Assembly (NCBI GenBank): GCA_022539475.1
Contig: VCMS01000056.1
Span: forward strand, 158,570 to 222,569
Length of the DNA: 64,000 nt
Reading direction: 5' to 3'
DNA from: Gracilaria domingensis
Lineage: Eukaryota; Rhodophyta; Florideophyceae; Gracilariales; Gracilariaceae
Part shown: positions 11,654-64,000 of the stretch, piece by piece
Layout of the letters: the number at the start of each line of letters is the position of its first letter
Numbering within the stretch: the first letter of the stretch is position 1
The notes under the pieces: generated by a model
The model's database searches: none
What the model was told of the DNA's origin: nothing
What the model saw: only the letters and a program-made list of their open reading frames with translations
Translations under genes and position numbers: made by a program

Positions 11654-12759
11654 TGTTCGTTTTTGAGGTTGCTGTGAATGAGGTTGGCGCGGGCTGCTGA
11701 CATAAGTGTTTGGTTGATACGTTCCGCAATTGCGTTGTGTTGAGGCGTGTATGGTGTGGACGTTTGATGTACGGTGCCCTGTTGTTGCAATTGGTTGTGG
11801 AGGGTCTTGCTCAGGTACTCCTTGGCGTTATCGGTGGTGAATATGTGGAGGTATCTGCTTGTGAGGTTGTGGAAAAAGCTAGAGACGAATGCATATTCCT
11901 TGGGAAGGTCCTTCCGGTTCGGGCTGAAATGAAGATAGAGGTATCTGCTGTGGAGGTCTATGAACGTTGTGAAGTAGCGGTTTTGCTTTGTTCAGGGTTG
12001 GGGCATTGGGCCACAGATGTCTGAGGTTAAGATGATGCCTCGCTGTGTATTGTAATGGCTTTTGCGGTGCGGTCGCTTCTTGATTCGACCTTGCTTGCAT
12101 GCACTGCATGATATCTTGTGAGTGGCCGTGTTCTGAAGTCTTCTGTCGGGTATAATGTTTTTCCTAGACATTACGGCAAGTGGTTGGGGGGTTGTGTGAT
12201 TAAAGACAAGATGCCATTTGTGTACGGGGTTGTTGCGGGCTGCCTTTGTTAGGGGTTTGGGTGTGGGACTCTCTGCGGTTTTGTAGAATGCGAGTGGTGT
12301 TGGTCGGTATATTTTGTGTTCGGACTTTGGGCGCTGGGTGCGTGTAGATTTTGTTTGGGTTCTGCCCGAAGATATGGGCGGGGGTATACGTTTTGTGTTC
12401 GGTGTTTGCTTGCTGAGAGAAATATGCGTTTGTGATGTGGAAGATGCAGGCTTTGCTGTTGATGGCTGCGCTAGATTGAGTGTGTAAGCATTGCGGTTCC
12501 ATGAAGCTGTTCCAAGGAGTTTAATGGGGATGGAACGGCTAAAGATGTACGCATGTTTGCGGGTGAATACTACTGGTCCGTACTTCTGTGCTATGAAATG
12601 CACTGATATGAAGATGCCCAGCACATCGTGGTTGATGAGGGTTGGTATGCTCAATGTGTGTCCCGCGCTAGTGTTGATTATGAGTGTCTCCTTCCGGCAT
12701 GTCTGTAACACATTCTTGGTCGCAGTGGTGGTGATGATGGGAGAGCGAAGGTTAGTCAC
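11419..12759 (-). pseudogene. Copia-1 GAG-pre-integrase and integrase
   Basis: Two frames. 11992-12759 ends in a GAG-pre-integrase/HHCC zinc region (HKWHLVFNHT...ISCSACKQGRIKK) and the first integrase strand with the catalytic Asp (ILTSDICGPM). 11419-11790 carries the last third of the core (TPYTPQHNAIAERINQT, with the catalytic Glu in AER). The middle core between 11791 and 11991 is out of frame, so at least one indel separates them. The retropepsin was not identified upstream. Confidence 0.8.
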
Positions 12760-22869: not shown

Positions 22870-24098
22870 GACAATAAGACGATAGGGTGCAAAGACTCCT
22901 TAAGAATGAGGTTCCCCCCACCATTGCCCATTCGCACCCGAACCTCCACCTATTTATACTCTCGTAGGCCGGCCGAGATTAATCGCCATTAGAAAAGACT
23001 CACGCACAGCGACCGAAGTGTTGCGAAAGCAAGGTGTTGCTGCTGCAGTGCAGCGAAACACGTGAGATGGTAGTGAAAATGATTGGCGCTCATTGTGCAG
23101 AGCTTGTCGCGTATAGCTTCCATTGACCCATTCAAGTGCTCACATTCAGACCAGGTCATCCGCAAGACCTGGATATCGCTTGGGACTCAAGAGTCCCAAG
23201 TTGGAAGCACGGTGTTCGACGGTTGCACACGCTGGTGACAACCGACAGAAGCCAGTGTGGCTCACGTCCTGTCAACGGCAAATTTTGTGACATGCTACCC
23301 AGCATCCGGATGACACGTAGTATACAGTCGTATAGATTGTTGTTCGAATGCGGGCTTTTCGATATAACTTAACGGATCACGAGTCTCATTATGAAGGGTA
23401 ACCTTAAAACACAAATATAGACCCTCGTTCGTTCGTTAACCTTCGAAAGCAGGCGGAACAGCCACCCAATGCGCCAGGCAAGCGGTTTTTGTTCTTTGCA
23501 GAACCATTTCTCGGCAAAGGACTGGCCAGCTCTTCGATGGGTAGAAATCCCGAATCACATTGAGACAGAAAAGAAAAGTCCTGCTAAGAACAGGGAAATG
23601 ATGGGAAGGTTTACATGTATCTCGAAGAACTGCTAAACATAGCATTCCCCAAATAGGGTTTCCCATTGGGATCTGATCCCCGGGATCGCTTCCCTTATCT
23701 TCTTTCTTTTCTTCTTTCTTTTCTTCTTTGTTTTGGACATCAGAATTCAATTACTAAACTGAAGTAAAGCTTGCATTAAGCTTTCTCTCTGTAGGAAGGC
23801 CAAAAACTTCTGTGGAGCTTGTCTTATAATGTTGCAAATCGATGCGCGAGCAAGAGGTGTAAGCTTGGCCATCAGTTCTCGTCTTGAAGATTTGTGGCCA
23901 GAACATCAGAAGATGACATGTTCGCAGTCTTTTTTCATGTTCGTTCCACATTCCCAAACTTTGGGAATGTGTTCCCTTCTCTTTGGCATCAAATGCGAGT
24001 GAAGTATGACCGCAAAAAATGAAAAAGATGTTGTGTTTGCACAGAGTTGTATTTTCTTTTCTATGTGAAGTTTAGTGCTGTTTCTTGAGTCTGTCTTC
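22870..24098. other. Gene-free stretch after the globin gene
   Basis: 22870-23130 is the globin 5' region. No gene was found in the remainder. A Gypsy-1-like patch lies at 23640-23700, with three TCCC..GGG palindromes within 60 bp and a run of TTCTTTCTTTTC. The short minus ORFs at 23436 and 23754 have no recognisable family. Confidence 0.45.
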
Positions 24099-26567: not shown

Positions 26568-28471
26568 TCACACGGGATTGTCATCGGGCATGTACGCATG
26601 GAGGAATGCACCTTTGACGTCAATTTGCTGCCTCTCCCAACCCCGATATACAGCAACTACGAGCATCAAACGAAATACTTCAAAGTTGAGAACTGGAGCG
26701 TAAAGATTATCTGCTTCTGCACTGTTCTGAAAATTGCCTCTGGCAACCAGACGGGCTATGAAACGTTCAGGGGCACCGGTATGGTCGCGCTTCAATAGCA
26801 AGATTACACCAGATGGAATCGAGCGTCCGTGTTGTCCATCAACTTCTTCATAAGTGCCTAGCTTGCCGATGGTTTCGAACTCAGTTTCAATTGCAGCCTT
26901 CCAAAATCCAGCCTCCGGTGAACGAAGAGCTTCCTTCAATGAATGGGCATCCAAGGTGCTAATCGCCTGCGGCAGAGCAGCATTACTTCTTTCGACTGGC
27001 ACAATTGAGATTTCGTCGTCAACTGCATCCTCAAAATTATCATGTGCATCATATTCTCTAGTGTCTGGGTTGTACGTAGAATGTCTGGGAGGAAAATGAG
27101 TGTGCATTCCGGCATCAGAAGAGTGAGATGAGTGAATATCATTCGGGGATGCAGAACCTGTATCATTAATGTCTGATACCTCAGAGTCTGAATCAAAAAC
27201 AAGATCTGGAATATCACTTGATGAAATGCACTCCACTTCTTCCGCAAAATCTTGTACAGAGCACGGAGATGCTGAAGGAAGGGCGGGTGGAATGGAATCA
27301 TTTGCACTAAGATTAGACAAGCCTGGAAATTCGTTCTCAATGAATCTCACGTGCTTCGTAACCGTTACTCCAGCATTGGTAAGTACCTTATATAGTCCAC
27401 CTTGTGTATGTCCAAGATTGATACCTTCAAGGAGACGTGAGTCAAACTCCTTCAATTGATCTCCTTGAATCATAACCAATACACGGCAGCCAAATACACG
27501 TAAATGCTTAATGTAACTGGGCTTTTCCTTGAGAAGAGATACATACGGAATCTTTGCAGTTGTTGTGTGTACCACAACATTCTTTGCCGTTGTGTACTGT
27601 GCAAGAGCATCAGTCCAGAATGAGATTGGCAGGTTAGCTTGCTGGAGGTACGCTCGGACTGTTCCCATCGGTAAAGATATATGGCGTTCAGCCAGTCCGT
27701 TCGAAGACGTAGTATAAGGAGAAGTCGTAGATATGTTAACTCCTTCCTTTCTTAACCTCTTCTGAGCTCTGAAAAACTCCGAACCGCCATCAGAGTGCAA
27801 GGACAGAACCACAGCTCCTGAATTACGTTCAAACCACTTGACATACTCGAGAATAACTTCAGAAGCTTCACTTTTGAGACGAAGAGGCCTTGTGCAGAGG
27901 AATCTGGTGTATTCATCCACAATAACGATGTAGTACTTGAATCCATCATGAGAATCTGTTCCTGCGGTAGTGATATCTGTATGAAGATGACCAGGATGTG
28001 AGGCAGTACTGGGAGATCCGCGAAATGACTTCTTGAACTTACCAGATACACAAGGGATGCTGATGAACTTGGAATAATCTGATCCTTCTTCAGTCTCTTC
28101 ACCAGTGAGGCAGAGACTGTATGTGCCAACCGACGATGCCAAAGTTGCACTGCATCTTTCGGTGTTGCCACAACATTGGTCTCGGCACAATGGTCAGGAT
28201 TACTTACCGGTGCATTAGCAACATCGACAACATCCTCAAGATCCGCCACTTCGTTCCTAGAGATAAATTCTGAACCTTGAGTAGCATCCAAAGATTCACA
28301 CTCATCATCTTCATCTTGAGATTGCTCTGCAATTTTGCGTACCTTCGCCATCAAGGAGGCTATGTTGACGTTCGGGTGTGGCGATGTACTGTGTTCAGAA
28401 GATGAACAGTCCGAAGAAATGTAGTAAAGTCCGTCAGACTGCCTAGGAGCAACCCCAAGCAACTGCAGCAT
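26568..28471 (-). pseudogene. Copia-2 GAG-pre-integrase, integrase and start of reverse transcriptase
   Basis: Two overlapping frames. The upstream one (28471 to about 28080) contains LWHRRLAHTVSASLVKRL, the GAG-pre-integrase histidines. It shifts frame near 28090 into a 540-codon ORF (28190-26568) with the integrase core: catalytic Asp in LHTDITTAG, second Asp in LHSDGGSEF, catalytic Glu in NGLAERHI, followed by the GCRVLV strand and a Ser/Asp-rich linker. The ORF ends within reverse transcriptase (RFIARLVARGNFQ, QQIDVKGAFLHAY). Integrase is therefore formally intact in this copy, but the polyprotein is not. Confidence 0.85.
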
Positions 28472-29258
28472 GGCTTCTGTTCTCTGTTACCTTCCCGTTG
28501 TTGATGACCTCTTTGTCACGAGAGGTACCTTCTTTCTCGAAATTAGAAACCTGAATACCCAGTTTATTCTTAGAGTACAACGGATTGAGAAAGCATGTTT
28601 CCGTAGTGTGATTGTCTTTCTTACATATAGCATACTTTCGGCGAGGTGCGTTTGCATTCACACGCTCCGTTCGTACTTTGCCAGCGGACTTCTGCTCATC
28701 TAGCAAGCGAGCGGTGACGAAGTCCCACGTCGTATTCTCCGGAGACAAGGTCTTGATTGCTGCACAAACAGGTTTTAACTCCTGTACAGTAATCGATGAG
28801 ACCAACAAAGCAATGGTAAGTTCTTCTGGAAGGTCCGTATTCATTGCAGCTAGCTGCTGCACAATGCTCGCCATCTTATCTACATGATGACCCAGGTTCC
28901 GATTGATATCAGAATATCGCAAAGTCACGAGCTCGCACATTTTTGAAATGCGAGAAGCCGTTGACTTAGATGCATATCGATCATCTAAACGCTTAAGCAT
29001 TCTGTTCGGATTTCCAATTTCCATTTGGACAACTCGTAATGCTTCATCTGACAAAGCCGAGACGATAAGGCCACTAGCCTTCTTCTGATTAAACTCGAAT
29101 TTTTTCTTCTTCTCATCATCAGTTCTAAACGGATTACGGCCATGCTTAAGAACAGAACCAATTCTTTTTGCATCACAAGCCGCCTTAATGCGCACGCGCC
29201 ACAACTTGTAGTCGTGCGACTCTTCGAAAGGTGTTATCTTGACTTTCTCGGTCTCCAT
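28443..29258 (-). pseudogene. Copia-2 Gag
   Basis: The start is taken at M 29258 (METEKVKITPF), because the upstream part of the frame lies over the primer site and LTR. The product is a copia-type Gag (UBN2/retrotran_gag family): DYKLWRVRIKAAC..., MLKRLDDRYAS, ELVTLRY, a long helix set and a zinc knuckle. The knuckle reads YAICKKDNHTTETC, so the first Cys of C-x2-C-x4-H-x4-C is Tyr, a single G-to-A change. The frame ends HAAVAWGCS just where the retropepsin should begin, and GAG-pre-integrase sequence follows at once, so the protease is deleted. Confidence 0.8.
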
Positions 29259-29313
29259 AATAACAAAAGCACTGATTGATTGATATTGCGAAACGTTGCA
29301 GAGATTAAGATGA

Positions 29314-29326
29314 GGTGCCCATAACC
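29314..29326 (-). other. Copia-2 primer-binding site (initiator tRNA-Met internal type)
   Basis: GGTGCCCATAACC on the plus strand, identical to the Copia-1 site and directly adjoining the LTR at 29327/29328. Confidence 0.65.
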
Positions 29327-29327
29327 T

Positions 29328-29615
29328 CTTAGAGAGAAAAGCTTTAATTGAGTTGGCTTGGAGATCGCCATGCAACCAAGAGCACCCTGGGTCTTACATA
29401 GACACAGGTCAAAGCCTACAGACTCTATGTAAACCAATTGTCGCAACATAATGCAAACTAGAGCGGGCGCCATGTAAACAAAGATACAAACATAAATGGG
29501 CGCCACGCATACATAAGCACAAACTTTCAAATTCAAACGAAGTACAAACATTCAGATACAATTCACGACCGCAGCACGTCAGCCGCTCAGTTCACTTACT
29601 GAAATATTTCCCCTC
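29328..29615 (-). repeat. Copia-2 5' LTR
   Basis: Partner of 25101-25384. It contains no recognisable TATA box, although GGTCTTATATAAACAC occurs at the equivalent place in the other copy (CTTACATAGAC here). Confidence 0.8.
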
Positions 29616-48260: not shown

Positions 48261-49723
48261 CTATTTGACAGTCCCCGGTTCATGCATCGCATTTTGCGGG
48301 TCGGGGAGTAACTTGAAGCTTGTCCCGAAGGGTTTCCTAGCTGTCAAGGGGTAGTAGCTTTGTGACGATGTCATCTTTCCTTTCGGCTGAGCGTATTCGG
48401 TGTAGCTTGATTTCCCGATTGTTAACGTGGTGTTCCAGGTAACGATATCTAATATTCGTTTATTTGTGGCGCCTCGTGCGAGCTTGATTTTGAGCGATAA
48501 GGATTGCTGACCGGTCGTCGATAGAGTGCGGAGTTGGCCGGTTTTCGCCGTCAATGGCGTCCTTAAGCAGCTTGTTGAGCCATTTGGTACGCCTTGCAGC
48601 CTCTGTCGCAGAGATGTATTCAGCTCCAGTGGTCAACATTGCGACCACATTTCGGCGCCGAGATTTGCAAGAAAATAGCGTTTAGTGTACAAAGTGAAAG
48701 GTAGCGCTGATTGATTTGCGGTCTTTTCCGTTGGAATATTCTGCGTCGTAGTAAACCGTAATTGATGTTTCAGATTGGTTGCCTGCTACCTTCCTTTAGC
48801 AGAGTCCGTTGGTGAGTGTGCCTTTCAGGTACCTCAGAAGAGATTTGAGTGCTTGCTTCTGGTGCTGTTGAGGTGCAGCCATATATTGTACCAGTCTGTT
48901 GGTGGCGTAATCTATATCGGTACGCGTGCTGTCGGTAATGTACCGTAGTTCGCCTAGAGTTTGACGATAGCGTTTGGCCTCGGTTGCTATTAATGACTTC
49001 TTTGATCCTGCTGGTCCAGTGGCTTCTGGTTGTTCTATGGAGTCCTGTTGGGAATGCAGTCGGTCATTTGGGTTTAGGTCAATGAGGCGTCTATAGCATC
49101 CGGCTGGGATATGTGTGTTCCTTTCTCCGTTTGCGTTATGGTCCAGTTCAGGAGTCGGGTTGGGGTGCCGAGCCGCTTCACTTTGTATTTGGTTAGCAGC
49201 GGTCGATAGAGGTCGTCGATTAGAGAGGATTGTGAGCCAAGGACTAGGAAGTTGTCGATTGTTGTGCTGACGACACTGTATTGTTCTCCTTTTGTGAGCA
49301 TGTATAGGCAGGATCATGTTCGGACTTGGTGAATCCAAAGGAGGTCAGGAAGATTTGAAGGCCGACGTTGTAGAAGTATGCTGCGGGTGGTGAGCCGTAT
49401 AGGTTGCCAATCAGTTGGCCATACTTGCTGTTTTGTTGGTAGCTGCCGTCGAAGCTAAGCATCTGTCGAACATAGATGGGTTTTTCGTGATCATATTTCT
49501 CGTGAAGATATGCGGAATTGATATGAAATTGTTCTAGGGGGAGGTCATCTGCAGCATGTAGGGCAAGTAGCATGCGTTGAGTGGTGCGATCGGCTGTGTG
49601 TGTGGTCGAGTGCGTTTGATCAAAGGGTAGGCCTGGTTTCATGAGGTCACCTCGAAGGTTGCATCGTGCTCTCCTTTGTGTAATATGTCCTTCTGCTGAC
49701 CGCTTGTAGCGGTGCACCATCAT
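48261..49723 (-). pseudogene. Copia-type pol fragment Copia-3 (reverse transcriptase / RNase H), frameshifted
   Basis: 49723-49244 begins in the fingers (RRARCNLRGD, PLEQFHINSAYLHE, LIGNLYGSPPA). 49338-48796 carries the connection (TLGELRYITDSTRTDIDYATNRLVQYM, LKSLLRYLKGTL). 48648-48261 carries RNase H (TTGAEYISATEAARRTKWL, DDRSAILIAQN). The YVDD box has become TIDN. The closest relative in this window is Copia-1. LTRs, integrase and gag are absent. Confidence 0.8.
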
Positions 49724-50179
49724 TAGCGGAATTACCTGTTGCTGGGGACGTCTGTCTCTTGCAGATGCTAGTTTTCGGCGAGGGTCGTCCAGAAATTGGC
49801 AAGGGTCGTCCAGTAAATTTTTTGAAAAAATATCTAGATCAATTATTTCAAAATTTGGAGATAATTGCTTGGGTCGTCCAGAATCGCTGTGCAGTAAATA
49901 CTGGTGGGTTTTCCACTCATGCTAGTTCTTTAGTCGAGGGCTACCTGAACCGTATTTCGCGAAGTCTAGGTTAAGTTTCCATTAAGGTGCACATTACACG
50001 ATACCTTCTGCGGAATGATACCCTGCAACGCATGGAATACTAGTGCTAGTACAGATGATGCCCATTATGAAATCATACCGTTTTATTCGTATCTATTCTT
50101 CTATCGACCGCTTTTGCTAACCACTACTTCGCTATATTACATGTACCATTTCCCCATGATGGAGCGGGTGTAGGCGCAA

Positions 50180-51166: not shown

Positions 51167-51572
51167 ACGCTACTTCGTAGCGAGTGCGAGAGCGGAAAAA
51201 AGTACGACGGAGCGGAGTAGAACGCGAGGATGGCACGGATCACGACGGTAACAGAAGGTAGGACGTCGGACGGGCGGCGGCGGCGGGGGGAAGAGATTTA
51301 TTTTTCTGTGCGAGATTGGACAAGTGTACAGCGTACAACGTTGGGAAACCACAGGTTTATAACCAGTGGTAGATAATACGAGAAGTACACCCTTGTGTTG
51401 AGGTCGACGTGTACCTACGTTCCTTTTTGAACGAAAGCACGTGATTTAAACTCAAAATATATTCTCCGTTCTCAGCTTGACGTCGATCTTGACTGTCGCT
51501 CGACCTCCTACTCCCTTTGGACGACCTTCCTTTGCAGTCTTTGTCGTCATTTCTCGTTCATTTCTTCTTCCC

Positions 51573-54500
51573 ATGGTCTACTACTGTACACATAAGAAGC
51601 GTGGGTGCCCCTTCATTACTCGCCAAGGAGTCTTATCTCTTCAACAGCATGTCAACCATTGCCCGTTTCGTCTGAAAGCAGCGCTGGAAGACCACAATAG
51701 GCGGCCCATTCGGAGAAGCAAGCGTCTCAAGCTTTCCGCGCACGCGGCCGCATCTTCCGAAACGGTCACTGCCCCTTGTCGCCTTCCCGAGCCTCCGGTG
51801 TCCGAGGACATCGTCGACCCCACTCCGTGCGCCCCTCCCATTCCGGACACTTCGCATTGTGTTTCTCCTTCCCCGGGTCCCGCGTCATTGGAGCGAGAAC
51901 ACGGAAGCAGTTCCCGCCCAGTGCCTTCTGAGGAGGCCCTCGGTGATTTGCATATGGATTATCTCACGGTTTGTCTGGCTTCAGTAGCTTCCAACCTTGG
52001 TCATCGTGAGGCAGACGAGCTAATTGGGCTACTTCGGGACACGCGATTCTCGCAAAAGCGATTCAACGAGACCATAACAAGTTCCAAGCGCTGTACAGAA
52101 CTGAAGAACGCCATTTTCGAACGATACGCCTCAAAGGACGGTTTCAATCGAAGAACTGTCTCGCCAGAAGGATGTAAGTTCAGCGCCACCCTCTACACGA
52201 GAGACCCCGTTCAGACACTTGTGAAACAGCTCCAGTTGGCTAACAACGAAAACACATTCTTCCACCCTATACCTCAGACCCACTCCACGAAAATATCTCA
52301 CCCCATGTCCGGCTCTCTCGCAAGAGACGCCACCTCAAAACTTAAGGAAATGGTCATGGGCTCTTTGGATAGTAGAATAGTGTGGTACTCCCAAGAAATA
52401 AGTTACAGTGAATCTTTCGTAGGTCTTCTGCAGGTATACACCGATAAGTCTTCAACAACTCTAAAGCAAACATCGGTTACCGCCTTTCCTCTTCACCTCA
52501 TATTTCTCAACTTCTCCGACGAGCTTCGCCGTAAGTGTATCCGTGATGACCTCACAGTAGTGGCATACTTCCCTACCACACTGATCGAGGTTTCCGCATC
52601 TGAAGCAGACGCAATGCCATTCGTTTCTAGCAAGTCTCTACGCGAGTCCAGGATGCAAATCCTTCAAGAATCTCTTCGTCAAGTCCTGGAGCCCATTCTA
52701 AATCTCACGCAGAAAGGTTTTCAGTTCATCGGCGAAGACAAACTAAGTCGACTGTGCCATCCTCTGCTTGCCAGTTATTGTGCGGATATTCCTGAGGCTA
52801 AGGACATTCTGTCCATTCTTGATGGGACCAAAACGGAAAGCCCGTGTCATAGATGCAAAGCCCCTCGCTCATCTTTATGCAGTCCTATTCCCACCTCATT
52901 CAACGGAAGTTCTCAAAAGCACACGAAAAGCATCCGAAAGACATACACAGCTCTCTTGCAACATGCACAAAAAGACGAGGCGGAAAGACGTCCACGTCGT
53001 GTGAGGGAGAGGAGATCTCAAGCGGATACTCTGATGCGTTCAAATTCTATATATCTCATTCCTTCGTTCCTCGAAACTTCCGTAAGCCTTGGAATGATCC
53101 CGGGATTGTCTCCATACAGTCTGTTCTCATTCGAACCATTACACAACTTGCATCTCGGCATCTCAAAGCTGATAAAAACGGCCACAATCGAGTGACTGCA
53201 GTCAGACACCCTGTGCACCACAATAGGAACATCTGCATCGCGTTCATTTCGAACGATACGCACCCAACTCCTCAACCATGCAAACGCAATTCTAGCTGCC
53301 ATAGAACGCGATTATCTTGCCAAAGGTTTACATATCGATTTCTCCACGCAGGAGAAAGGCAAATCTTTGAATGGTATCTTCACGAAAGACGGTCTCCGTG
53401 GAATGCTGGAGGCCAAAAACTACAAAGCACTTGACATGGTCTTCCCCTTCATAGGAGCATTCTTTGACATATGCTGTGGAGAACAGGACGTTGCCCCAAT
53501 CACAACCGTTTTCTCTCAGTACTCGGACTTGCTTTCGACCTTATTCAGATACAATCGTGACCCGTATTGGACTGAAAGCTCTCTCCCGTGTCTTAGTTCG
53601 GAGATTGAAGCCTTCAAGCGTTCCGCAACAGAGACTCTGGCGGATTTTCATCCCTCCAGACTGGGAACTCTGAAGTTTCATCTTCTCGATCATCTCGTGG
53701 ACGATATTCGCCGTCTGGGAAGTATCAAGTACTACGACGCAGGCATATACGAACATACACACCTGCTATTTAAGAGACACTACAAAAAGACGTCCAGAAG
53801 AATAGCAACGGCTGTAGAGGAGACTATTCGCTCCATTGAGCACGGAAATGTTAGAAAGCAATGGAATGGCAATACTCCTTACCAGCGTAATCCAGGTTTA
53901 CCAGGAACTTCCACACAGCTTCCTCGGTTTGCAATGAGAGGGCGTTCTTTCACTTTACGAGCTCTTCAACATTTTGTTTCAAGTATGTCCAGTTCAAAAA
54001 CATGGACTGCTGTTAGAGAGATGTTCTCAAGTACGGACACAAGGTCGATTCCTGACCAAATTGGTGAACAGGCCCTTCCTCCTTTCTTCAGTCTCGTGAA
54101 AGAAACACTGTATTAGCACTCTATTACATACTTCCCAGAAAAGACAAGGATAACTGTGGTGAATTCGGCTCTCGTGAAAGGCGGTTTCGTTCCGACTCTT
54201 GAACACTTCGATTCGTCTTCTAAGGCACTTAAGCTGGGACGACCCAAATACCCCATCATCCAAAGTGTCTTCGCTTCTCCAGCATTTGGTCCCAGTAGAA
54301 AGCCAAAGTTTTCCACTGTATTGGTAAGCGGAGAAGATTCAGAGACTTGAGTTGCCCAGGTAGTCGCTCTGATTCGAATATCTCTCCTTGATTCTGCACT
54401 TACCGCACCAGAGGTGGCATTCGTCCGGTATTTCGAGGTTTTACCCCCCGCAACAAACATCGACCACATATTGAAATGCATATCTTTACGGTGGGCTACA

Positions 54501-54752
54501 AACGATGAAAAGAACCACACTCTTCCGTTCCCTCCTCATTCCAAAGCGGAGACTATCGTAGAGTTAACTCCTTGGTACGGGATGGTTCCGGCTTCTGCAC
54601 TACAGGGAACTGTCCATGTTCTTCGATCAAACTACCCTGCTCCACCTTTTTGTCCTCCACTTCAATGGTTTCAACACCGATTCTACATCAATCGATTCTA
54701 TCATGATTCAGATGAGGGACCAACTGAGCACGTTGATCTTGTACAGCCTTAA
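51573..54752 (+). pseudogene. KDZ/Plavaka-like DDE transposase with three in-frame stops
   Basis: One frame of 1060 codons from ATG 51573 (CCCATGG) is interrupted only by TGA 53193-53195, TAG 54114-54116 and TGA 54348-54350; sense continues in the same frame after each. Residues 5-30 form a zinc-finger-like motif (C-x6-C-x13-H-x3-C). Then comes DPVQTLVKQLQLANNE and VWYSQEISYSESFVGLLQVYTDKSS with the first catalytic Asp (~D291), TAFPLHLIFLNFSDELRRK, PCHRCKAP, and FEPLHNLHLGISKL, where the second Asp of the family (D-x-LH-x-LH-x-G) is Glu. After the first stop: HLLDHLVDDIRRLGS and YEHTHLLFKRHYKK, the E-x-x-H end motif. This is the architecture of Plavaka, a Kyakuja-Dileera-Zisupton branch. All stops can derive from CGA or CAG by C-to-T. 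Confidence 0.75.
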
Positions 54753-57145
54753 ACATTAAGGGCTCCATCCTCTACATGTTCACCTCGTGGTGCCTTTTTT
54801 TGTGATCCTGTGCTACTTCCGAAATCGTTCATGTCCATTTCCTTGAACTCCATATCCCCTTCCTCGCATTCACCAACGAAACAATCGCTAATAGAACCCA
54901 ATCTTCGGCTCACACTGTCAATAAAAAAATGTTCTTTTACAGTGAGGTAAAGTCTTCCGTTCGACGGCATTCGATATCCAAATGTAGCCTCTCTCATGTC
55001 ATTACCAAGAACCTTAGTCCAATCTTCCGTTGTCGTTCCAAAATTATGAAACTCGCTGGAATTGGTGCTCAAGACACGTTGCCCAACATCCCCCAGAACA
55101 TTGTTTAAACACAGAGGTAGCAGTTCGTCAAACTTCTTTGTAAACAGTCTCTGTCTCTGGCCACCCCTTGACACATCCGTACTTAGAAGGGTCACAACCG
55201 TCAACACCCAAGCGTCCAAACGTGCGAGCAACAGTATTGTGCCATCTAAAAAGGTGCCCGTATCCTTGTCTTCCACATCATACCCAATAAACTCCTTCAG
55301 TACTTGTACCCCGACACGGTTTCGGAAGAACAAGTCTTGATCTTCCGTCGGCATATCTTCGACATTGTCCGCATTAGAGTACTTTAGACGAACAAATGGG
55401 GCTTTTCTCCACCATGAAGTGTTCGGTACACCATTTTCGTCAAGACGCAGTATGTTCTCCTGCGCTTCCTTCAACTGCATTGTGAGTTCGTCAGCATTCT
55501 CTTCTACCAGCTTTGTTCTTCTCCAAATCAGATCGTACCCCAGGAGCAGAAATAGTTTATCCCTCTTATTTCTCTTCCGAACGCCCACGACGTCACTCAT
55601 GGTCTGCCGCATTCTCTGCCTAAGGCACATATCTGCACAAAGTTCCAGTATACACCTGTCGGTAAGAGATGCTTTTCTAATACCTTCCCAGCTCAACTCC
55701 TTCAACTCGCTTTCAACCATTTTCTTCAGCAAAGCATCTGGCCCCCCATCTACCGACGGTGTGAACATGCTAAAACTGCCCAAGAGCTCCACGGGGTTTT
55801 TAGGAACCATGTATGAACCACCGTCCTCCGGCTCAATAAGTCCTTCCCCACTCTCAGTTGCGTCTTCCACCTTCTCGACACGGTTACCCCAATTTCGGGT
55901 GAGCGACTCACCTTCGAGCCATAGCTCACTTGTTTCTCTCCTTGCCCACGTCAGCATGTTTTGATACACTGCTCGAGCAACCCCTCGAAACTCGTCGCAC
56001 ACCTCAATTTTATGCTTCTTTCGACCTATCTGCCCAGGTTCACCAGCACGTGTACTCCTATCTCCCTCCTGTCTCAGTGCCTCTCTTAGCTCTTCAATGA
56101 CTAGATCCTTCTCTTCAAGCCTCTTTTTCAAAGCCGTACTCTGCTCTTGGGCGACCTTCACTAGAATTCCCCGAACCATCAAGTCCTCTTGTAGCGTCTT
56201 AACCTTTTCTTTCAAGCAATTGAGTTCATTTAAAAGATCACGTCTATTCATAGAGGTTGATTTCACAACAGTGTGGATATCTTCCGGTATTTCCCTAGCT
56301 TCTTCGGCGACAGGCCCCGGTAATGCCGCAGGATTCGGTGTTATTTCGTTATCGGAACTATCGTCATGTGCCATACCTTTAGACACGAGAGGCCGCAGGC
56401 GTTCTGTGTCCACCTTTAGCACGGCTCCGAGCTCCAACTCCCGTGTCTGTCTCCCTCCATGGCATGGTATATCAGATGAATTGGGCCTCGTACGAGCTGC
56501 AACGGCCCCCGTTCTGGAAAGAGGGGAAGGTCGAGGAGTACCTCGTCTATCAGTTGTCTCTCGATTTCTTATTGTCTTTCTCCCTTGTCCGGACCCATTG
56601 CCAGGCATGATACGATTCATAGCGGCCCCAGTTCTAGAAGACAGGAATGGACGTGACGATCTTAATATACTAGGGCTCTCACGACTTTTCGTCATTGTCC
56701 CTTGTTGTCCAGATCCACTGGGCGGCGTAACCCGCGCCCCAGTAGCTCCGGTCTTCGATATCGGCCGGGGACATGAAGGTTTTGGTGTCATACGAACCTC
56801 TTCAGTTCCAGTTGTCATGCCCTCCTGTCCTGACCCGCTGGGCCGAGTTACCTCATCTTCTTGAGGAGCAGAGACAGATGCACGATTTGCATTATCGGCA
56901 GTTGACGGCACGACATCGTTCGCTGATCCACGAATTCTTGACGCAATCCCGGAAGACGCTCCGCTTAGAGATGGGCGAGAGAGTACTGTAGAAGGACGCC
57001 CACTGACTCTCTCCTTCGTCGAGGACGACTTCCGTTTAGGAAGTGCGGTGCTTGTAGCCTGATTCGTATCATCCGATGCTCTTCTCTTCTTCTGTCCACT
57101 CTTGTTCCGCTGCGTACTATTTCGCTTTCTCGGCGTTATACCCAT
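54749..57145 (-). CDS. Coiled-coil nuclear-type protein of unknown function
   Basis: The frame is open from 57352, but the Met at 57145 (MGITPRKRNS) is the better start, since the residues before it are of low complexity. The ~798-residue product starts basic (SGQKKRRAS). It has three or four degenerate repeats of ~35 residues with the core PSGSGQ.G.MT...E (~110-230), then a coiled coil (LLNELNCLKEKVKTLQEDL... to EELREALRQE, ~300-370). A 400-residue mixed alpha/beta part has no recognised family (for example LFLLLGYDLIWRRTKLVEENADELTMQLKEAQ). It ends four bases past the transposase stop on the other strand. The role is unknown; association with the transposase or DNA termini is conceivable. 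Confidence 0.65.
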   Translation of the reverse strand: MGITPRKRNSTQRNKSGQKKRRASDDTNQATSTALPKRKSSSTKERVSGRPSTVLSRPSLSGASSGIASRIRGSANDVVPSTADNANRASVSAPQEDEVTRPSGSGQEGMTTGTEEVRMTPKPSCPRPISKTGATGARVTPPSGSGQQGTMTKSRESPSILRSSRPFLSSRTGAAMNRIMPGNGSGQGRKTIRNRETTDRRGTPRPSPLSRTGAVAARTRPNSSDIPCHGGRQTRELELGAVLKVDTERLRPLVSKGMAHDDSSDNEITPNPAALPGPVAEEAREIPEDIHTVVKSTSMNRRDLLNELNCLKEKVKTLQEDLMVRGILVKVAQEQSTALKKRLEEKDLVIEELREALRQEGDRSTRAGEPGQIGRKKHKIEVCDEFRGVARAVYQNMLTWARRETSELWLEGESLTRNWGNRVEKVEDATESGEGLIEPEDGGSYMVPKNPVELLGSFSMFTPSVDGGPDALLKKMVESELKELSWEGIRKASLTDRCILELCADMCLRQRMRQTMSDVVGVRKRNKRDKLFLLLGYDLIWRRTKLVEENADELTMQLKEAQENILRLDENGVPNTSWWRKAPFVRLKYSNADNVEDMPTEDQDLFFRNRVGVQVLKEFIGYDVEDKDTGTFLDGTILLLARLDAWVLTVVTLLSTDVSRGGQRQRLFTKKFDELLPLCLNNVLGDVGQRVLSTNSSEFHNFGTTTEDWTKVLGNDMREATFGYRMPSNGRLYLTVKEHFFIDSVSRRLGSISDCFVGECEEGDMEFKEMDMNDFGSSTGSQKKAPRGEHVEDGALNV

Positions 57146-57391
57146 GTTGTGGAGATAAACGGGGTAATGAAACGAAATTGTTGGGGGGGGAAGGGGTGAG
57201 GGGGGTGGTGCATGGTTCAGATATTCCGGGAGACTCCGCAGTTTCTGTTTTTTAGGAATTTGAGGTGCCCAATGGGTCGCAAATATCGCCGTTACAGATG
57301 AAGAGCTCCAGTGTACATGTACAACAACGCGTATTGCAGACAGCTGCAACATTCACAAGCATATTTACTTTCTATTCGGTACTGAACTCAT

Positions 57392-60148
57392 CTATTGCTC
57401 CAATGTCAGAGCCCAGTCCCAGGCGTACTGCTCTCCGTAGTTGAAATACAGCTCTTCGCCCCTCTCAATATCTCTTACTGCTCTACAACGAAGTAGGGCA
57501 TAGTTAGAAAGGTCGGACTTAAACTGTATCACGGACTTCGCTTCCACCACCTGCACATTGGCACTTCGAGTCCTGTTTGACCGGGGCTGCGTTAAATCGG
57601 GATCCCCGGCATGATATCCGGCGTCGTTAATGTAGCCCCCGATACAAAAAGGCGCCGGAACAATGTAGACTTCGCTCTCCTTTCTATCCTGAGCCTGTCC
57701 TGGTCTGTTCCTCAGGTGCAGAAACTCCGTACCAGTCACAGTGACCATCATAGAAAACAACTTGTACCGCACTGGAGTTGCTCCGAGACAGCCACTTCCA
57801 TACGTAAAGTGTCTTTCCTTCCGGTTCGTCAGATCCGTGTATACCAAAGTTCCATAAAAATGACAGATAGTTTCCCCAGCCAATATCTTATGTTCCGTGA
57901 ACACCCCCATACCAGCACGGGGATGTCGAATCTTAGAAGATGCTACATGTAAGCGATAACGATTGGCTTCAACAGTCAACAGCATATGCATATCCATTAG
58001 ATTCAGAGCTCCTCGGTACTTCTCCTCCCAAAGATCTACAGTATGCTGTCCACACTTGTCGACAAAGTCCCAGTCCTTCCAGTATATTCCTAGGAACTGA
58101 GTAATATGTGCAGGCATCACTTGGTACTGAGGGTAACCAAATGGAGCCTCCCATTCAAGCCGACCTCGGTCTCGATGTGGAACCCGTTCATAAGTCGTTG
58201 AAGCCGCATCCACCACCTCCTGTTCAACCAGGATGTCATTCTTCCCCCCGCGAATGACTTCGGCCATAAGAGTCGTTATATGGTGCTTCGCATGGCTGAA
58301 ACATGGCCTATTCTTCTCGCACCCCAAGAACTTCCTATGCTTTGTCAGCGACAGGCACGCCATACCCGTAGAAAAAGTTCCCGCGAACATGTCCATGACA
58401 AGATCACCCGGTCTTGTGAAGCGACATATCAACTCGTTCATCAACTCCCTCGACTTCTGCTCCGGTCTTATGTACTGCCCACCTGGTACTGAACTACCTG
58501 GCTCATGTACCTTCCATGTCAACCACTCTCCCGCTCTCGGTTTTGGCACCCGGTCAATTACATTCCTGTTAGCCGGGAAAGTAGAAGGAATAAAATTGTT
58601 CTCCTCAAATGGAGTAAGACTGGCTTCCTCCGATGGTCGCAATCCACGCTTCACCCCATGAACGGCGTACTCCGTTACGGGCTGTATCCCAAACTTCCGT
58701 GGATTCCCTCCAACATTACTTCGATCCCGGATGAACACCAGCGGATTCGCATCCACTTTAAACGAAGGCGTGAGTTCTGGTTTATCTTCGCTTCCAGCTT
58801 CATCTTTAGTACTCGCCGTTTCCGAAAGTATCCTGTGCCAAACATGAAACTGTGCCATGGCACAGAATACAATGAAGTGCCCACCTGACCGAAGCGCGGA
58901 ACTTATTAAGTCAGCCGTACGGATCATGTCATCCTCACTGAAGACATCGTGAGCACTATTCCGTTTGTTCCTCTTCCTTCGAGTGTTAAAGGGAGGGTCT
59001 GTTAGGACAAGCTGTGCCTCACCCCATAAAATCTCACTCTGATTCACAAACGTTTCGTGTGTGTGCCTCAGGTCCTTCATGTCACAGTTGTACGCTACAA
59101 AGTGTGACTTTCTCATCCCCTTCCACACCTTGTCCATATTCATTCGAAGGAGACTGGATATCCCCTTCATGGGCGGCTCAATACCAGTCTTTTGGATGTT
59201 GTAACCGGCAACCCGAGATTCATGCTCCGCAAGATTCACCGGCTTCTCGAAGTCGTCGCTATCGGAGCTCACGAGGTTCATACACTCTCGACGAGGTGGG
59301 GGTGGGGCAGACTTGGTCGAAGAAGGTTCGGCCTTACCGGAATTTTTAGGGGTTTTCGTCAGTTCAATATCAGGTTTCGCGTGAATGCCGACATGGAACC
59401 CTGCCGCATGACGCATATCCTGTATCGGTTTCCATAGCAACTCCGAAAACTTCTGAAATCGAGCAGGCAACGCACCGGAGTCAGAACCAGATACGGTATC
59501 CATCCGTATCTCCGAAAACTCTATCCAGTTCCTCATCTGATCAGCCCGTAAGCTATAGAGGCTATCGTGGGTGCATATGGTTTCGAGGTCTGTCAAAAAT
59601 TCCTCAGCCAGTATTCGGAGGTTTGTATCGCATCCATCACTCAAGGTCTCCACCGATCCACTAGTACTGCTCTGTGGCACATCCTGTGTGTTGAATCGAG
59701 TACTCTGGCTCGGCGGGGCATAACCAGACTCCCGTGTCTCTAGCGCCGTATACTTCAACGTCTGCATATTCATGTAAATGTATGGTTTCACCATGTGCTG
59801 AACGTTCGTGTATCCAAGATGAGCCGCAAAACAACTCCATGCCCATACGACCTCACTGATAGCGAATCCCAGTCGATCACAGTTGTCTTTGGAGAACGAC
59901 GTAAAAGTGGGTATGTACACAGATGGTGCATGGTTCACTTTTCGTTTCTTTTTCGGTTGTTTCTTCTTCATCATTCGGATGTTGTCGTTCTCTCCCATTA
60001 TGTGGCCGAGGTATGATAAGTATATAACGACTTCAAATGGGTTCACAGCTGTTGGTGGGATGAACACTGTCGTCTTCAGAACCTGCTTTCTCCTGGTCAT
60101 GAAATAACCAACCAGGCATCGCACCGGTAGGTATATACCCATATCCAT
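57392..60148 (-). CDS. Beta-class DNA amino-methyltransferase fused to a SET domain
   Basis: 918 codons. A nuclear localisation signal KKKQPKKKRK lies at 61-70. Residues ~380-630 form a CcrM-like methyltransferase with catalytic motif IV first (LTDPPF, 384-387) and the S-adenosylmethionine motif I later (GDLVMDMFAGTFSTG, 588-595). The order IV then I defines the beta class, and DPPF points to N6-adenine or N4-cytosine. The second Gly of F-x-G-x-G is Phe. Residues ~728-912 form a SET domain: GMGVFTEHKILAGETICHFYG, YINDAG with ANVQVVE in place of NHS..PN, and RDIERGEELYFNYGEQY. It should thus modify both DNA and a protein, probably a histone. The upstream frames (60149-60527) suggest a longer N-terminus. 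Confidence 0.8.
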   Translation of the reverse strand: MDMGIYLPVRCLVGYFMTRRKQVLKTTVFIPPTAVNPFEVVIYLSYLGHIMGENDNIRMMKKKQPKKKRKVNHAPSVYIPTFTSFSKDNCDRLGFAISEVVWAWSCFAAHLGYTNVQHMVKPYIYMNMQTLKYTALETRESGYAPPSQSTRFNTQDVPQSSTSGSVETLSDGCDTNLRILAEEFLTDLETICTHDSLYSLRADQMRNWIEFSEIRMDTVSGSDSGALPARFQKFSELLWKPIQDMRHAAGFHVGIHAKPDIELTKTPKNSGKAEPSSTKSAPPPPRRECMNLVSSDSDDFEKPVNLAEHESRVAGYNIQKTGIEPPMKGISSLLRMNMDKVWKGMRKSHFVAYNCDMKDLRHTHETFVNQSEILWGEAQLVLTDPPFNTRRKRNKRNSAHDVFSEDDMIRTADLISSALRSGGHFIVFCAMAQFHVWHRILSETASTKDEAGSEDKPELTPSFKVDANPLVFIRDRSNVGGNPRKFGIQPVTEYAVHGVKRGLRPSEEASLTPFEENNFIPSTFPANRNVIDRVPKPRAGEWLTWKVHEPGSSVPGGQYIRPEQKSRELMNELICRFTRPGDLVMDMFAGTFSTGMACLSLTKHRKFLGCEKNRPCFSHAKHHITTLMAEVIRGGKNDILVEQEVVDAASTTYERVPHRDRGRLEWEAPFGYPQYQVMPAHITQFLGIYWKDWDFVDKCGQHTVDLWEEKYRGALNLMDMHMLLTVEANRYRLHVASSKIRHPRAGMGVFTEHKILAGETICHFYGTLVYTDLTNRKERHFTYGSGCLGATPVRYKLFSMMVTVTGTEFLHLRNRPGQAQDRKESEVYIVPAPFCIGGYINDAGYHAGDPDLTQPRSNRTRSANVQVVEAKSVIQFKSDLSNYALLRCRAVRDIERGEELYFNYGEQYAWDWALTLEQ

Positions 60149-60527
60149 AGAGAGAAGAAAAAATCGCGCAGTCTCTGGTCCTCATCCCCGTCCTTCTGGT
60201 CAAGAAGCTTCGTTACAAGATATCGTTGTTCCACAGGTTTGTTATTCACAAAACTCTTTCGCAGCTGTTGCAGTGTCAAGTTCTGCAGGTTCTTGGAGTT
60301 AGTGGCCTCCTCAAACATCTTCCTTGCCTCCGGAATATCTTATAGTTCTCGGCGCAGAACTCTATTAACCCTCTAAACCCCACGTCCCGTGGCCGATCAG
60401 GGCCTCCATCGCTGTTTGCCAAAGCATCGCGAAGAACCAAGAAAAGTCTGACATATGCATGGAACGCCGGAGGCGGAGCACTCATGTCGATAGGATGTAT
60501 CTCCTCTCCATCATCGGTGGAATCCAT
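60149..60527 (-). pseudogene. Probable out-of-frame N-terminal part of the methyltransferase-SET gene
   Basis: Two short frames line up end to end with the fusion gene. 60527-60276 starts MDSTDDGEEIHP and is coding-like to AENYKI. Near 60330 the sense moves to the next frame (EARKMFEEATNSKN...), ending around 60160 in a run of six A (T on the coding strand). Past the run, the fusion gene frame takes over. Two one-base shifts, or tiny introns or assembly errors, would join all three. The Met at 60527 lies 29 bases from TTTAAA at 60556-60561. Confidence 0.5.
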
Positions 60528-60849
60528 GCTTCAGCGCAAACAACGGATGCGAGCCTTTAAATGGCGACTTACGCTGGGCACCCCCGCTTTCGGCAGCTCC
60601 TCCCAGCGCACTGCCAGTCTCGTCCGTGTCCGTGTCCGCTTGGTGCGATAGCGTCGCGTGTCGGCCACGTCGCGATTCGGAGCTATTGCAAAGGTCGCGT
60701 ATTGTGCTAAAAGTCGCGGATCAAGTGGGTGTGAAGCGCTAGTTTTCTCTAGTTTGATATATGTGCACGGCGTGTGCAGCGAAATCACTGCCGGAAGAGC
60801 CGGAGGAGTGCTTTGGGAGGTCTCCGGAGGGTGCCGGAATGTGGCCAGA

Positions 60850-60935
60850 ACGTGCCCGCGGGCGGGGGGGGGGGGGTCGGTCGTGTTAGGGTAGGTACCC
60901 TAACACGACCGGACCCCCCCCGCCCGCGGGCACGT
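60850..60935. repeat. GC-rich hairpin 1
   Basis: ACGTGCCCGCGGGCG, a run of 13 G, GTCGTGTTAGGGTA, centre GGTACC, then the complement with a run of C. Arms of ~43 bp with differences only in the G/C run length and one or two bases near it. The run of G could also form a quadruplex. Confidence 0.85.
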
Positions 60936-60969
60936 TTTGGGCGATTTTTTGAAAAATGTGCGATTTTAT

Positions 60970-61040
60970 GCCCGCGGGCGGGGGGGTCCGGTCGTGTTAG
61001 GGTAGTACCTAACACGACCGCCCCCCCCGCCCGCGGGACG
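60970..61040. repeat. GC-rich hairpin 2
   Basis: A second, slightly shorter version of hairpin 1 (CCCGCGGGCG, G run, GTCGTGTTAGG, centre GTAGTAC, complement). It is separated from hairpin 1 by a 34-bp AT-rich spacer (60936-60969). Confidence 0.85.
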
Positions 61041-61462
61041 TTCTGGCCACATTCCGCTCCTTCCCGGGACCTCGCAAAACACGCCGCCGCGCAGTGATTT
61101 CGCTACACCCGGCCGCCGGTACGTTGGCGCCGCTGTCCACGTGTATTTGCGGGAGTAGGCTGTACATGGAAGTGAATGAGTGTACTCTTGACTACTATGC
61201 AAAGCATTTGAAGAGCTTGTTAGAGAGCGCGACCATTGCTCGCGTGAGTCATCATTGCGCGAACTCCACGACTCTAAAGCGTACAATCAGCGTGCGAGCG
61301 GCCACGGACAGGACACGGACGAGACTGGCAGTGCGCTGGGAGGAGCTGCCGAAAGCGGGGGTGCCCAGCGTAAGTCGCCATTTAAAGGCTCGCATCCGTT
61401 CTTGTATCGTCCAGAGCGAGCGTATTGTTGATATACACCTTTCACTGCAATAGCTGTTCAAC

Positions 61463-63486
61463 ATGAAGCCAACTCGTGTTCGAAAGCGTACGCAAAGCGT
61501 GACTCCTCGCACTCGGCGGAGCACTCGATTATTGCAAGGTGGAATGCGGGTTTCTCTGCAGATGGATATTGAGAATGAAGGAAAGGTGATAGTCGGGGAA
61601 GCGTTGTTGCATGGAATTGGAAGTGTTCTACGCCGCGAGTTGCACGGAAGCAATTGGACCCAGGTCTTGTGGTGGTTCATAATATTCTCATCAGTCGAAG
61701 CGGTCAGACGTTCTACCCTTACCGGGCGGAGGGCCTGGATCTTCCACAATATATCCAGGATCTCCGGACGGCCGCTCCTTGGGATGAGAAAATGATGGAA
61801 CCGGTGGCAGCCAGCATTCCGGCGTCCAAGCGAGGAACGGTGAGCGCTATGAGTGAGGTGATGACGCCGACAAGCCGCACGGAGCCAATTCGAAGTTCAT
61901 CAACACCGAGAGGTAGCGCATCAGTAGCACCTCCGCGGGCAGGTCCGTCGTCTGTTACGAAGCGGTCTATGGAGACGAGAGCATCCCCAGCTACGAAGCG
62001 GACAGGTCAAACAAAGTCTACCTCCGCTACGAAGCCCACTGCGTCGAAAAGGGCTTCTCCTGCGATGAATCAGACCGTCGACACAAGGGGATCTTCTGCG
62101 TCGAAACAGACGGTTCAGCAGGGGACGGCTGTGCAAGAGGAGGAAGATGAGATCATGAAAGGTCCCCTTCCAGACGCGGATGCGCAATCCGCGCAAGGAG
62201 CTGGTCCATCTGTACCCCAAACTGCACCAGAAACTGCGGAGCAGCAGGACGATGACGTTGTGCTTCTGTCCGCAAGAATGGCACGTTCAAGTGTTTCTGG
62301 CGAGCGGTCTGGAACACAAGGGACACCTACTCGGAGCAAGACGTACAGACGAATTCGTCAGAAGGTACCAAAGGTGAACCTCAATCAGTACCGGATGGTT
62401 GTTGTTACTGTTGACATCACTCTGGTGGACACTCCGCCCAATTTACTCCGTGGAGTAAGTAAACGCCACGTTGAAGCCCTTGTGAAGAGTATGGAGGAGC
62501 GGGGGATATTGCAGTCGATGGGTTCTCCAGTGGTGGCCTTACAAGATGCTACTACGGGAGAGAGGGATACTGACAAGGGACGCCTAACGAAGAAGTGCTT
62601 CATTGTAGATGGTTTGCATCGTCTGAAAGCTATACAATATTTGGCAGCGACTGGTGCACCGAAGTGGAAGCGATTAGCCAAGTTTTGGCGTTGCAATCTG
62701 CTGATACGAAGAGATGGGAGGCCCATTGGGATGAAGGAATTGTTATGTGTTGCTTCGTACCTCAATGAGTCGACGAGTACCATGCGAAGGATGATGTTTG
62801 CAGACAAGATACACTCTATAGTTAGTGTGGTCGCCATTCTAATTGAAGATGTTGAGGGGGTGACGCCGGCAGACGTGGATCCTGCAGAAGTGACAGAAGT
62901 GTTGAAGGAGAGCCAACTGATTGGGACTGTGCAAGAGCGTCAGTATCTGAGATATGCCAATGTCGCCCTGCAACTCATGTCTCGTGAGGGAATGCTGGCC
63001 CATTTCGAGGATATATGTGAGACTGTGAGTGACATAGGTCTCACACATCTGTCCCATACTCCGCTATATGTTTTGGATGCCGAGGAGTTTTCCTTCATTC
63101 TTGATTGTCTTCAGATGTTTCTATTGAAGGGCAAGTCGACGAAGACAAAGCAATGGAAAAGCTTTGAGGAGGTTCGAGGTTTCTTTTATGATAGAGCAGT
63201 GTCTCTGTTCCGCGCGGCTCGAGCAGTGAGGAATGAACTGAACGAGGAAGAGTCCATGGAAGTGTTCCTGAAACGCGAAGTCAGTCTTTCTGCTCCATCG
63301 AATGAAGATGACGTTGAAGACCCAGACAACAACGCAGCTGTGTATCAGTTCCTTTTGGGACAAGTTGTGAACTTCAACACATTGCCGCGTGTTCGGAGCA
63401 GGACGAACTCAATTAGAACTGCCACGACTTCCGTTCAGAATCGATTGCGGACGATGCTCAAGGTAATTCCGCCCCCGCACCAGTGA
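61463..63486 (+). pseudogene. ParB/Srx-like domain protein, one frameshift near the start
   Basis: The ATG at 61463 opens MKPTRVRKRTQSVTPRTRR... in one frame; near 61650 the sense passes to the frame that stays open to 63486. The N-terminal ~50 residues are basic. From ~61860 to 62160 the protein has a run of repeats of the type SPATKRTGQ/SSASKQTVQ. The domain at 62390-62760 resembles ParB/sulfiredoxin-like NTP-dependent proteins: RMVVVTVDITLVD, RGVSKRHVEALVKSMEERGILQ, FIVDGLHRLKAIQYLA, with the DGxHR box at 62608-62622. In bacteria ParB proteins bind CTP and centromere-like DNA; in mobile elements related domains cut DNA or act in modification systems. The role here is unknown. The indel could be a real lesion or a sequencing error. 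Confidence 0.65.
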
Positions 63487-64000
63487 AGCAGTCCGTGACG
63501 AAGAGGAGGACTCCCGCTGCTGCTGCTGCAACATCTGCCAGTGAAGAAGGGGAGCCGCGAAGAAGTGCACGAGAACGGGCGCAGGTGAGTTATAGGGAAA
63601 TTGAGCACGGCCGAAATCGAGGTGCCATAGAAGTTCTGGATAGCTCTGAAGAAGAACAGCGGGCTCCGCCGAGGAAGAAACGGAGAAAGACTTTCACACA
63701 ACAGATGAGATCTACTCTGAACAGCATGACACCGGATGACCTGATGTCTCAACTAAATGAACATGTGCTGAGAGTAAGGTCGATGAAGGTTCAGTTCGTG
63801 GCATTGGGAGAGGGAGCGAATGCAGAGACGCAGGCAGTTCTGCATTTGTGGGATGACGAAGAGCTTCTTTCTGTGACAGTTCCACGGGTTGTCACCGTCG
63901 AGAAAGATGCTGCGCCAGACGATCAGCAAGAGACAGGTGGGGGGTCATTTGATGACGAGTTACCTACGCTCTTCCGGAATCCTGAGAAGCACGGACTTGT
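63417..64000 (+). CDS. Charged nuclear-type protein, 3' end outside the window
   Basis: An open frame, -1 relative to the ParB-like ORF, overlaps its last 70 bases and runs off the window. It reads KRRTPAAAAATSASEEGEPRRSARERAQ, then APPRKKRRK (a nuclear localisation signal), TFTQQMRSTLNSMTPDDLMSQLN, then a strand-rich part (MKVQFVALGEG, LLSVTVPRVVTVE). No ATG precedes 63699 in this frame, so it may be the continuation of the ParB-like protein by a -1 shift over the C run at 63472-63476, or via a small intron. No family is recognised. Confidence 0.5.

Follow-up and report, generated by a model that had tools for sequence, protein, structure and literature searches.

We analyzed a 64,000-nucleotide stretch of the genome of the red alga Gracilaria domingensis (contig VCMS01000056.1, positions 158,570 to 222,569), here called the window, in which a single open reading frame (ORF) is predicted to join a bacterial-type DNA amino-methyltransferase to a SET domain. 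This fusion gene is the cargo of a multicopy transposon and lies between transposon ends together with a transposase. Its predicted product is a single chain consisting of a conserved N-terminal region, a beta-class DNA amino-methyltransferase, and a SET domain. The positions of all features are summarized in Table 1.

Rereading of the sequence confirmed the ORF and its strand as originally predicted, together with the motifs DPPF (residue 384), FAGTFSTG (residue 588), INDAG, and ELYFNYGEQY. Both domains scored above the Pfam cut-offs: N6_N4_Mtase (PF01555) with E 8.7e-15 and 55.7 bits against 26.7, and SET (PF00856) with E 1.7e-7 and 32 bits against 22.4. DPPF precedes FAGT, the permuted motif order of beta-class amino-methyltransferases. 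The proposed likeness of the methylase half to CcrM was borne out by the sequence and by the predicted fold. The nearest NCBIfam families were CcrM-type adenine methylases, at scores far under their cut-offs (CcrM, 26.1 bits against 830), and structure comparison placed the predicted fold, which is of the beta class, nearest to CcrM, M.BceJIV, and MboIIA. Adenine-N6 (N6A) is the better bet for its predicted specificity, rather than cytosine-N4 (N4C), because DPPY is the bacterial N6A motif and SPPY that of most N4C enzymes (PMC8885841; here and below, statements on cited papers refer to the available part of their texts).

In the SET domain of the window copy, the catalytic Tyr of GEELxxxY is present, as is the Asn of the NHSC region, which does not retain its His or Cys. 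Viral SET proteins were among the Foldseek matches of the fusion model to predicted viral structures (best E 2.2e-6), whereas the 50 PDB structure matches listed for the model, filled by the methylase half, contained no SET chain. Compared with solved structures, the SET half gave weak sequence matches to EZH2, SETD8, KMT2C, and KMT2A. No chromatin reader domain, including a chromodomain, appeared among the Pfam results for the fusion protein. The basic stretch KKKQPKKKRKV is present and is the putative counterpart of the proposed nuclear localization signal.

The fusion is found in many copies. The methylase profile gave at least 150 matches in the host genome (the best 150 of 328 candidates), all exceeding the cut-off. 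With the fusion protein as the query, the best 50 of 967 candidates yielded 52 rows, 35 of which span the full 918 residues; 13 of these 35 are free of stops. Two loci (L024 and L025) and the right copy of a third (L028) continue the frame upstream to an ATG, giving a 1,045-amino-acid (aa) single-exon protein; at L027, the added N-terminal part contains one stop. Outside the host genome, we found 16 homologues covering 83–97% of residues 330–918 with 28–46% identity; according to precomputed annotation, 11 carry both Pfam domains and 5 the methylase alone. The one named homologue is the Chondrus crispus 'adenine specific DNA methyltransferase'. The Pfam results, the genome copies, and these homologues thus uphold the predicted presence of both domains in one frame. 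The alternative that annotation or assembly created the fusion, through contamination or two adjacent genes being read as one, could appeal to the many contigs that break within the element and to the position of the window at a contig end, but the fused frame is shared by numerous copies and by 16 proteins from outside the host genome, and the host was identified as Gracilaria, since proteins named Gracilaria domingensis are 95% and 89% identical to the ParB-like protein encoded beside the fusion. This alternative is extremely improbable.

Contig breaks inside the fusion gene are common, and one orientation prevails: among the 24 methylase-profile rows that begin no more than 10 kb from the start of a contig, 18 are on the plus strand. 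Perhaps reads fail at the palindromic spacer described below. The fusion frame of the window is identical to that of contig C378, and its ParB-like frame to those of C505, C169, C187, and C465; either the window copy itself or its assembly is a mosaic.

Both halves of the fusion are under constraint. The pooled dN/dS was 0.43 overall, 0.32 for the methylase, 0.40 for SET, 0.49 for the linker, and 0.54 for the N-terminal part. These values, from 20 pairs of 7 copies (the identical pair of the window and L027 excluded, the stop-bearing copy L007 included), are rough, as some pairs overlap and some branches are recent and perhaps neutral. Trees of the methylase and SET halves of 19 sequences had 8 of 16 splits in common, compared with a mean of 0.27 and a maximum of 3 in 500 permutations; two methylase-tree splits with support of at least 90 were missing from the SET tree. 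The 19 family methylases formed one clade with support of 100 against 22 viral and prokaryotic methylases, which were hand-picked from 135 loci with longer matches preferred. Thus, the phylogenies of the two halves fit a single old fusion whose parts were inherited together, and the sequences indicate that it is not a chance joining of two domains. That the fusion arose in a virus or a prokaryote was considered and rejected: at least 71 viral and at least 64 prokaryotic loci match residues 21–330 of the 589-residue query, that is, the methylase half. No viral or prokaryotic match over the SET half was among those listed, the search patterns having been derived from the methylase half.

The location in an apparent transposon was also confirmed, and the element is multicopy and larger than the window reveals; the window takes up the final 64 kb of its contig, and the element continues past the contig end. 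The first transposase ORF matched PF18759 (E 1e-17, 64.8 bits against 26.3), and the last matches the end of a long frame in L023. When window positions 49700–50000 were used as the query, 40 of 612 candidates were scored, namely the window and 39 other copies; all 39 begin at query positions 45–51, and therefore 49749 is the true end of the element. Other copies gave the sequence of the opposite terminus, 5'-CGTCTGTGTTCTGCAAAGTGG. In L106, L108, and L110 the far terminus reads CGTCTGTGTTCTGCA, against CGTCTGTCTCTTGCA on the transposase side; no far terminus was seen in L109. The copy in C187 ends at 23263 and 46077, 22.8 kb apart, and TT flanks both ends in this sole copy with both ends read, the target-site duplication of Plavaka being 2–3 bp. 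The termini (CGTCTGT..ACAGACG) match neither those of Plavaka A (TGT..ACA) nor those of Plavaka B (CATCA..TGATG) (PMC12730594). We therefore call the element Plavaka-like, as its transposase domain fits but its termini differ.

From the terminus at 49749, the window carries the transposase (+), the partner gene CC867 (−), the fusion gene (−), the palindromic spacer, and the ParB-like gene (+). The fusion gene, CC867, and the transposase occur in that order in 15 of 20 loci, which were mostly chosen at contig starts; L020 is without the transposase, L023 is without CC867, and L026–L028 end short. Parts of the arrangement recur in diverged loci. L032 has the transposase end (43% identity), CC867 (48–50%), and the fusion together, L033 has the ParB-like gene (30%), the fusion, and CC867 (35%) together, and in L031 a dioxygenase-like part (37%) adjoins a 1,170-aa fusion frame. 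This frame (L031, 2414–5923) is one of three near-identical fusion frames of about this length on contig C382.

Two candidate structures of the element were discarded. A sharp boundary at L034:4963, taken as a second terminus, arises because the C378 copy is truncated there, and the left arm of a giant palindromic element in C465 is joined across a run of N. Separately, the outer element part at L034:4963–7797 gave 1207 first-look candidates compared with 779 for the ParB-like gene, all being candidates rather than copies; short derivatives of the element may exist.

For the function of the fusion product, we tentatively favor, at somewhat short of an even chance, a permissive, self-protecting chromatin role over a silencing role. 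The protein would enter the nucleus, methylate adenines in element DNA, and methylate lysines of a nearby protein, either a histone or the transposase. These marks would hold the element in permissive chromatin accessible to its own transposase, and the divergently encoded ParB-fold partner with a dioxygenase-like part might use the palindromic spacer as a loading site and from there read, spread, or remove the marks. Everything in this mechanism beyond the methylase fold, including the substrates, the self-marking, and the role of the partner, is what we infer. The permissive role is favored because AMT1-encoding eukaryotes show N6-methyladenine (6mA) together with H3K4me3, their causal order being reported as unresolved (PMC12695648), and because DPPY points to N6A.

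Several points weigh against this reading. An inhibitor test in such eukaryotes spoke against a directing role of H3K4me3 for 6mA (PMC12695648), and marks on the element could equally be repressive. The best match of the SET half splits by method, being EZH2 (5.4e-4) with a profile and KMT2A (0.0015) with a single sequence; since these weak matches divide between families, the target lysine is not indicated, and an earlier leaning to H3K4 was dropped. The transposase of the window is fragmented. The window copy of the fusion gene is damaged at its N-terminus, because the matching ~127 residues (to about 60530) fall in two other frames; introns in this part were ruled out, as three other copies are open in a single exon. 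Judging from the motifs, catalysis is not assured. The second Gly of the S-adenosylmethionine (SAM) motif I is Phe in all 17 aligned family rows, and the NHSC signature of SET is altered to N-D in the family (Asn-Asp in 15 of 17 rows). The two exceptions, P0014 and P0016, are also without the SET Tyr. Diverged loci depart further: L031 (26% identical) has EPPY for DPPY, with GTFS and Asn-His; L032 (44%) has GTST for GTFS, with DPPY and Asn-Asp; and in L033 (31%, interrupted) DPPY was found, but a pattern search found no motif I.

The Phe, the change to N-D, the loss of the SET Tyr in two rows, and the EPPY of L031 would suit a pseudo-enzyme, a scaffold in which at least one half binds SAM, DNA, or histone tails without catalyzing a reaction. 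Against this, DPP[FY] is kept in 17 of 17 rows and the SET Tyr, by pattern, in 15 of 17, both halves are constrained, and GTFS, shared by all 17 rows, is also found in 1 of 22 bacterial and phage methylases examined (L121, from Psittacicella hinzii). We consider a pseudo-enzyme quite unlikely. The Phe is thus present as originally noted and is no lesion of the window copy, since GTFS occurs in all 17 members, whereas the suggestion that it alters activity is weakened by its sharing among the relatives and with L121.

A repressive or competitive use, in which the fusion product silences its own or rival copies and limits damage to the host, would resemble the silencing proposed for N4CMT and SETDB1 in bdelloid rotifers. 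The motif of the fusion is DPPF/Y rather than the SPPY of N4CMT, and the high copy number of the element argues against effective silencing; we give this use a low probability. Dam methylation gates some bacterial transposons. By analogy, the methylase could mark element ends or new copies in transposition control, with the transposase, CC867, or another non-histone protein as the substrate of the SET half. The linkage of the fusion to both genes, the CcrM-like beta-class fold predicted for the methylase half, and the lack of a chromatin reader domain among the Pfam results are consistent with such control. However, the basic stretch and the SET domain suit chromatin at least equally, and no element-specific target site was identified. 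Transposition control appears unlikely to us, and the permissive chromatin role is retained as the favored one.

Table 1 Features of the window. Positions are numbered from the first nucleotide of the window.
Feature	Position	Strand	Basis or remark
Plavaka-side terminus, 5'-CGTCTGTCTCTTGCAGATGCTAG	49749..49771	+	Alignment of copies, termini read
Three subterminal repeats, ending GGGTCGTCCAG	49770..49881	+	Repeat analysis
Plavaka-like transposase, in pieces	51477..54752	+	ORFs 51477-53195, 53367-54116, 54414-54752
CC867, conserved protein, partner gene	54749..57352	-	Beside the fusion gene, also in L032 and L033 at 35-50% identity
DNA amino-methyltransferase/SET fusion (predicted)	57392..60148	-	918-aa open frame
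SET domain, residues 746-905	57434..57913	-	Pfam
N6_N4_Mtase domain, residues 379-616	58301..59014	-	Pfam; motif IV (DPPF) precedes motif I (DMFAGTFSTG)
Basic stretch KKKQPKKKRKV, residues 61-71	59936..59968	-	Read in translation
First ~127 codons (N-terminal part) of the full-length fusion gene	60149..60530	-	Out of frame in the window copy; in frame in L024, L025, L028
First 93-bp arm, immediately preceding the fusion gene	60539..60631	-	99% complementary to 61311-61403
Palindromic center, tandem GC-rich palindromes CGGTCGTGTTAGGGTA..TACCCTAACACGACCG	60835..61056	.	Repeat analysis
Second 93-bp arm, preceding the ParB-like gene	61311..61403	+	Inverted repeat
ParB-fold protein with C-terminal HxD..H..R (2-oxoglutarate (2OG)-dioxygenase-like) part	61463..64000	+	Main ORF 61654-63486

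The 93-bp inverted repeat places a shared sequence upstream of both the fusion gene and the divergent ParB-like gene. The exact palindrome motif was found in 7 of 175 loci, most of the others not covering that place, and a half-site chosen post hoc occurs 3 times in the window against 0.02 expected. At the same position in L033 (2768–2834) lies a 29-nt palindrome, 97% complementary and of unrelated sequence. Two subfamilies thus carry long near-perfect palindromes, unrelated in sequence, between the ParB-like gene and the divergently transcribed fusion gene. A fair guess is that the spacer is a loading site of the ParB-like protein or a shared operator.

The ParB-like frame of the window is interrupted and cut by the contig end. 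The predicted structure of this partner has a ParB/sulfiredoxin fold, whereas Pfam gave no ParB match and a comparison of the family profile with solved structures found nothing convincing. HxD..H..R is complete in 6 of 9 homologues; two gene models skip the region and one ends early. No dioxygenase family appeared in the Pfam results for the partner, and its dioxygenase-like part is modeled with low confidence. The public gene models P0017 and P0018, which omit the HxD-core stretch, bear unrelated names (mediator subunit 15-like and SasA), and the homologue P0022 has a Ulp1-type protease domain (PF02902, 55.5 bits). CC867 had no Pfam match up to E 1 and no NCBIfam match up to E 0.1. Past the ParB-like gene lies a HAD-hydrolase-like frame (PF08282, 23.6 bits against 20.9), and two further frames there had no Pfam match. 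Elsewhere in the window, frames at 9605–12759 and 26568–29375 resemble, by eye, long terminal repeat (LTR) retroelement polyproteins.

A more ambitious form of the favored role would make these genes a complete epigenetic kit, in which a single-chain writer of 6mA and histone methyl-lysine is accompanied by a divergently encoded ParB-like clamp-dioxygenase that loads at the palindrome and reads or erases the DNA mark. We regard this kit as doubtful; its candidate target lysines would be H3K4 and H3K27. We know of no protein that writes both 6mA and histone methyl-lysine. If true, the single-chain writer would be the first, linking 6mA and a histone mark physically, and a red algal transposon would manage its own chromatin by bacterial-type DNA methylation and a histone-type writer. 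A natural fusion of an adenine-type methylase with SET would make the coupling of DNA and histone marks directly testable in one protein.

In the open-access literature, as far as its texts were available and with most subscription papers outside its scope, we found no description of a DNA methylase–SET fusion. DIRS retrotransposons likewise encode an adenine methyltransferase, in a Dam-like domain; they are another class of element with another class of enzyme, and they are not known to carry a SET domain. The AMT1/MT-A70 pathway is likewise a eukaryotic adenine DNA methylation tied to H3K4me3, but it depends on host genes of the MT-A70 family, unlike the transposon-borne algal fusion; in the available part of this 6mA survey, none of the terms red alga, rhodophyt, or SET domain appears (PMC12695648). 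CcrM (6pbd) and other bacterial beta-class N6-adenine methyltransferases (M.BceJIV, MboIIA, and M1.HpyAVI) resemble the algal protein in permuted order, DPP[YF], and predicted fold; the algal protein differs from them in having Phe in place of the second motif I Gly, a long N-terminal region, and a C-terminal SET domain. N4CMT of bdelloid rotifers is a host gene with a chromodomain reader and SPPY, whereas the algal fusion is a many-copy transposon cargo with a SET domain and DPPF/Y (PMC8885841); with DPP[FY] in every aligned row and no chromodomain found by Pfam, the family is not of the N4CMT type. Transposons with SET genes or TET/JBP cargo are already in print (PMC12730594). The HarbingerS and MuDR transposons of Phytophthora likewise carry SET lysine methyltransferase genes, with other transposase classes and, in the available text, no mention of fusion to a DNA methylase (PMC12730594). 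Among the fungal TET/JBP-carrying transposons are Plavaka elements, which resemble the algal element in combining a Plavaka transposase with epigenetic-enzyme cargo; the algal element differs from them in its red algal host, in its CGTCTGT termini, distinct from those of PlavakaA and B, and in its cargo, a predicted methylase–SET fusion with a ParB-fold/dioxygenase-like protein (PMC12730594).
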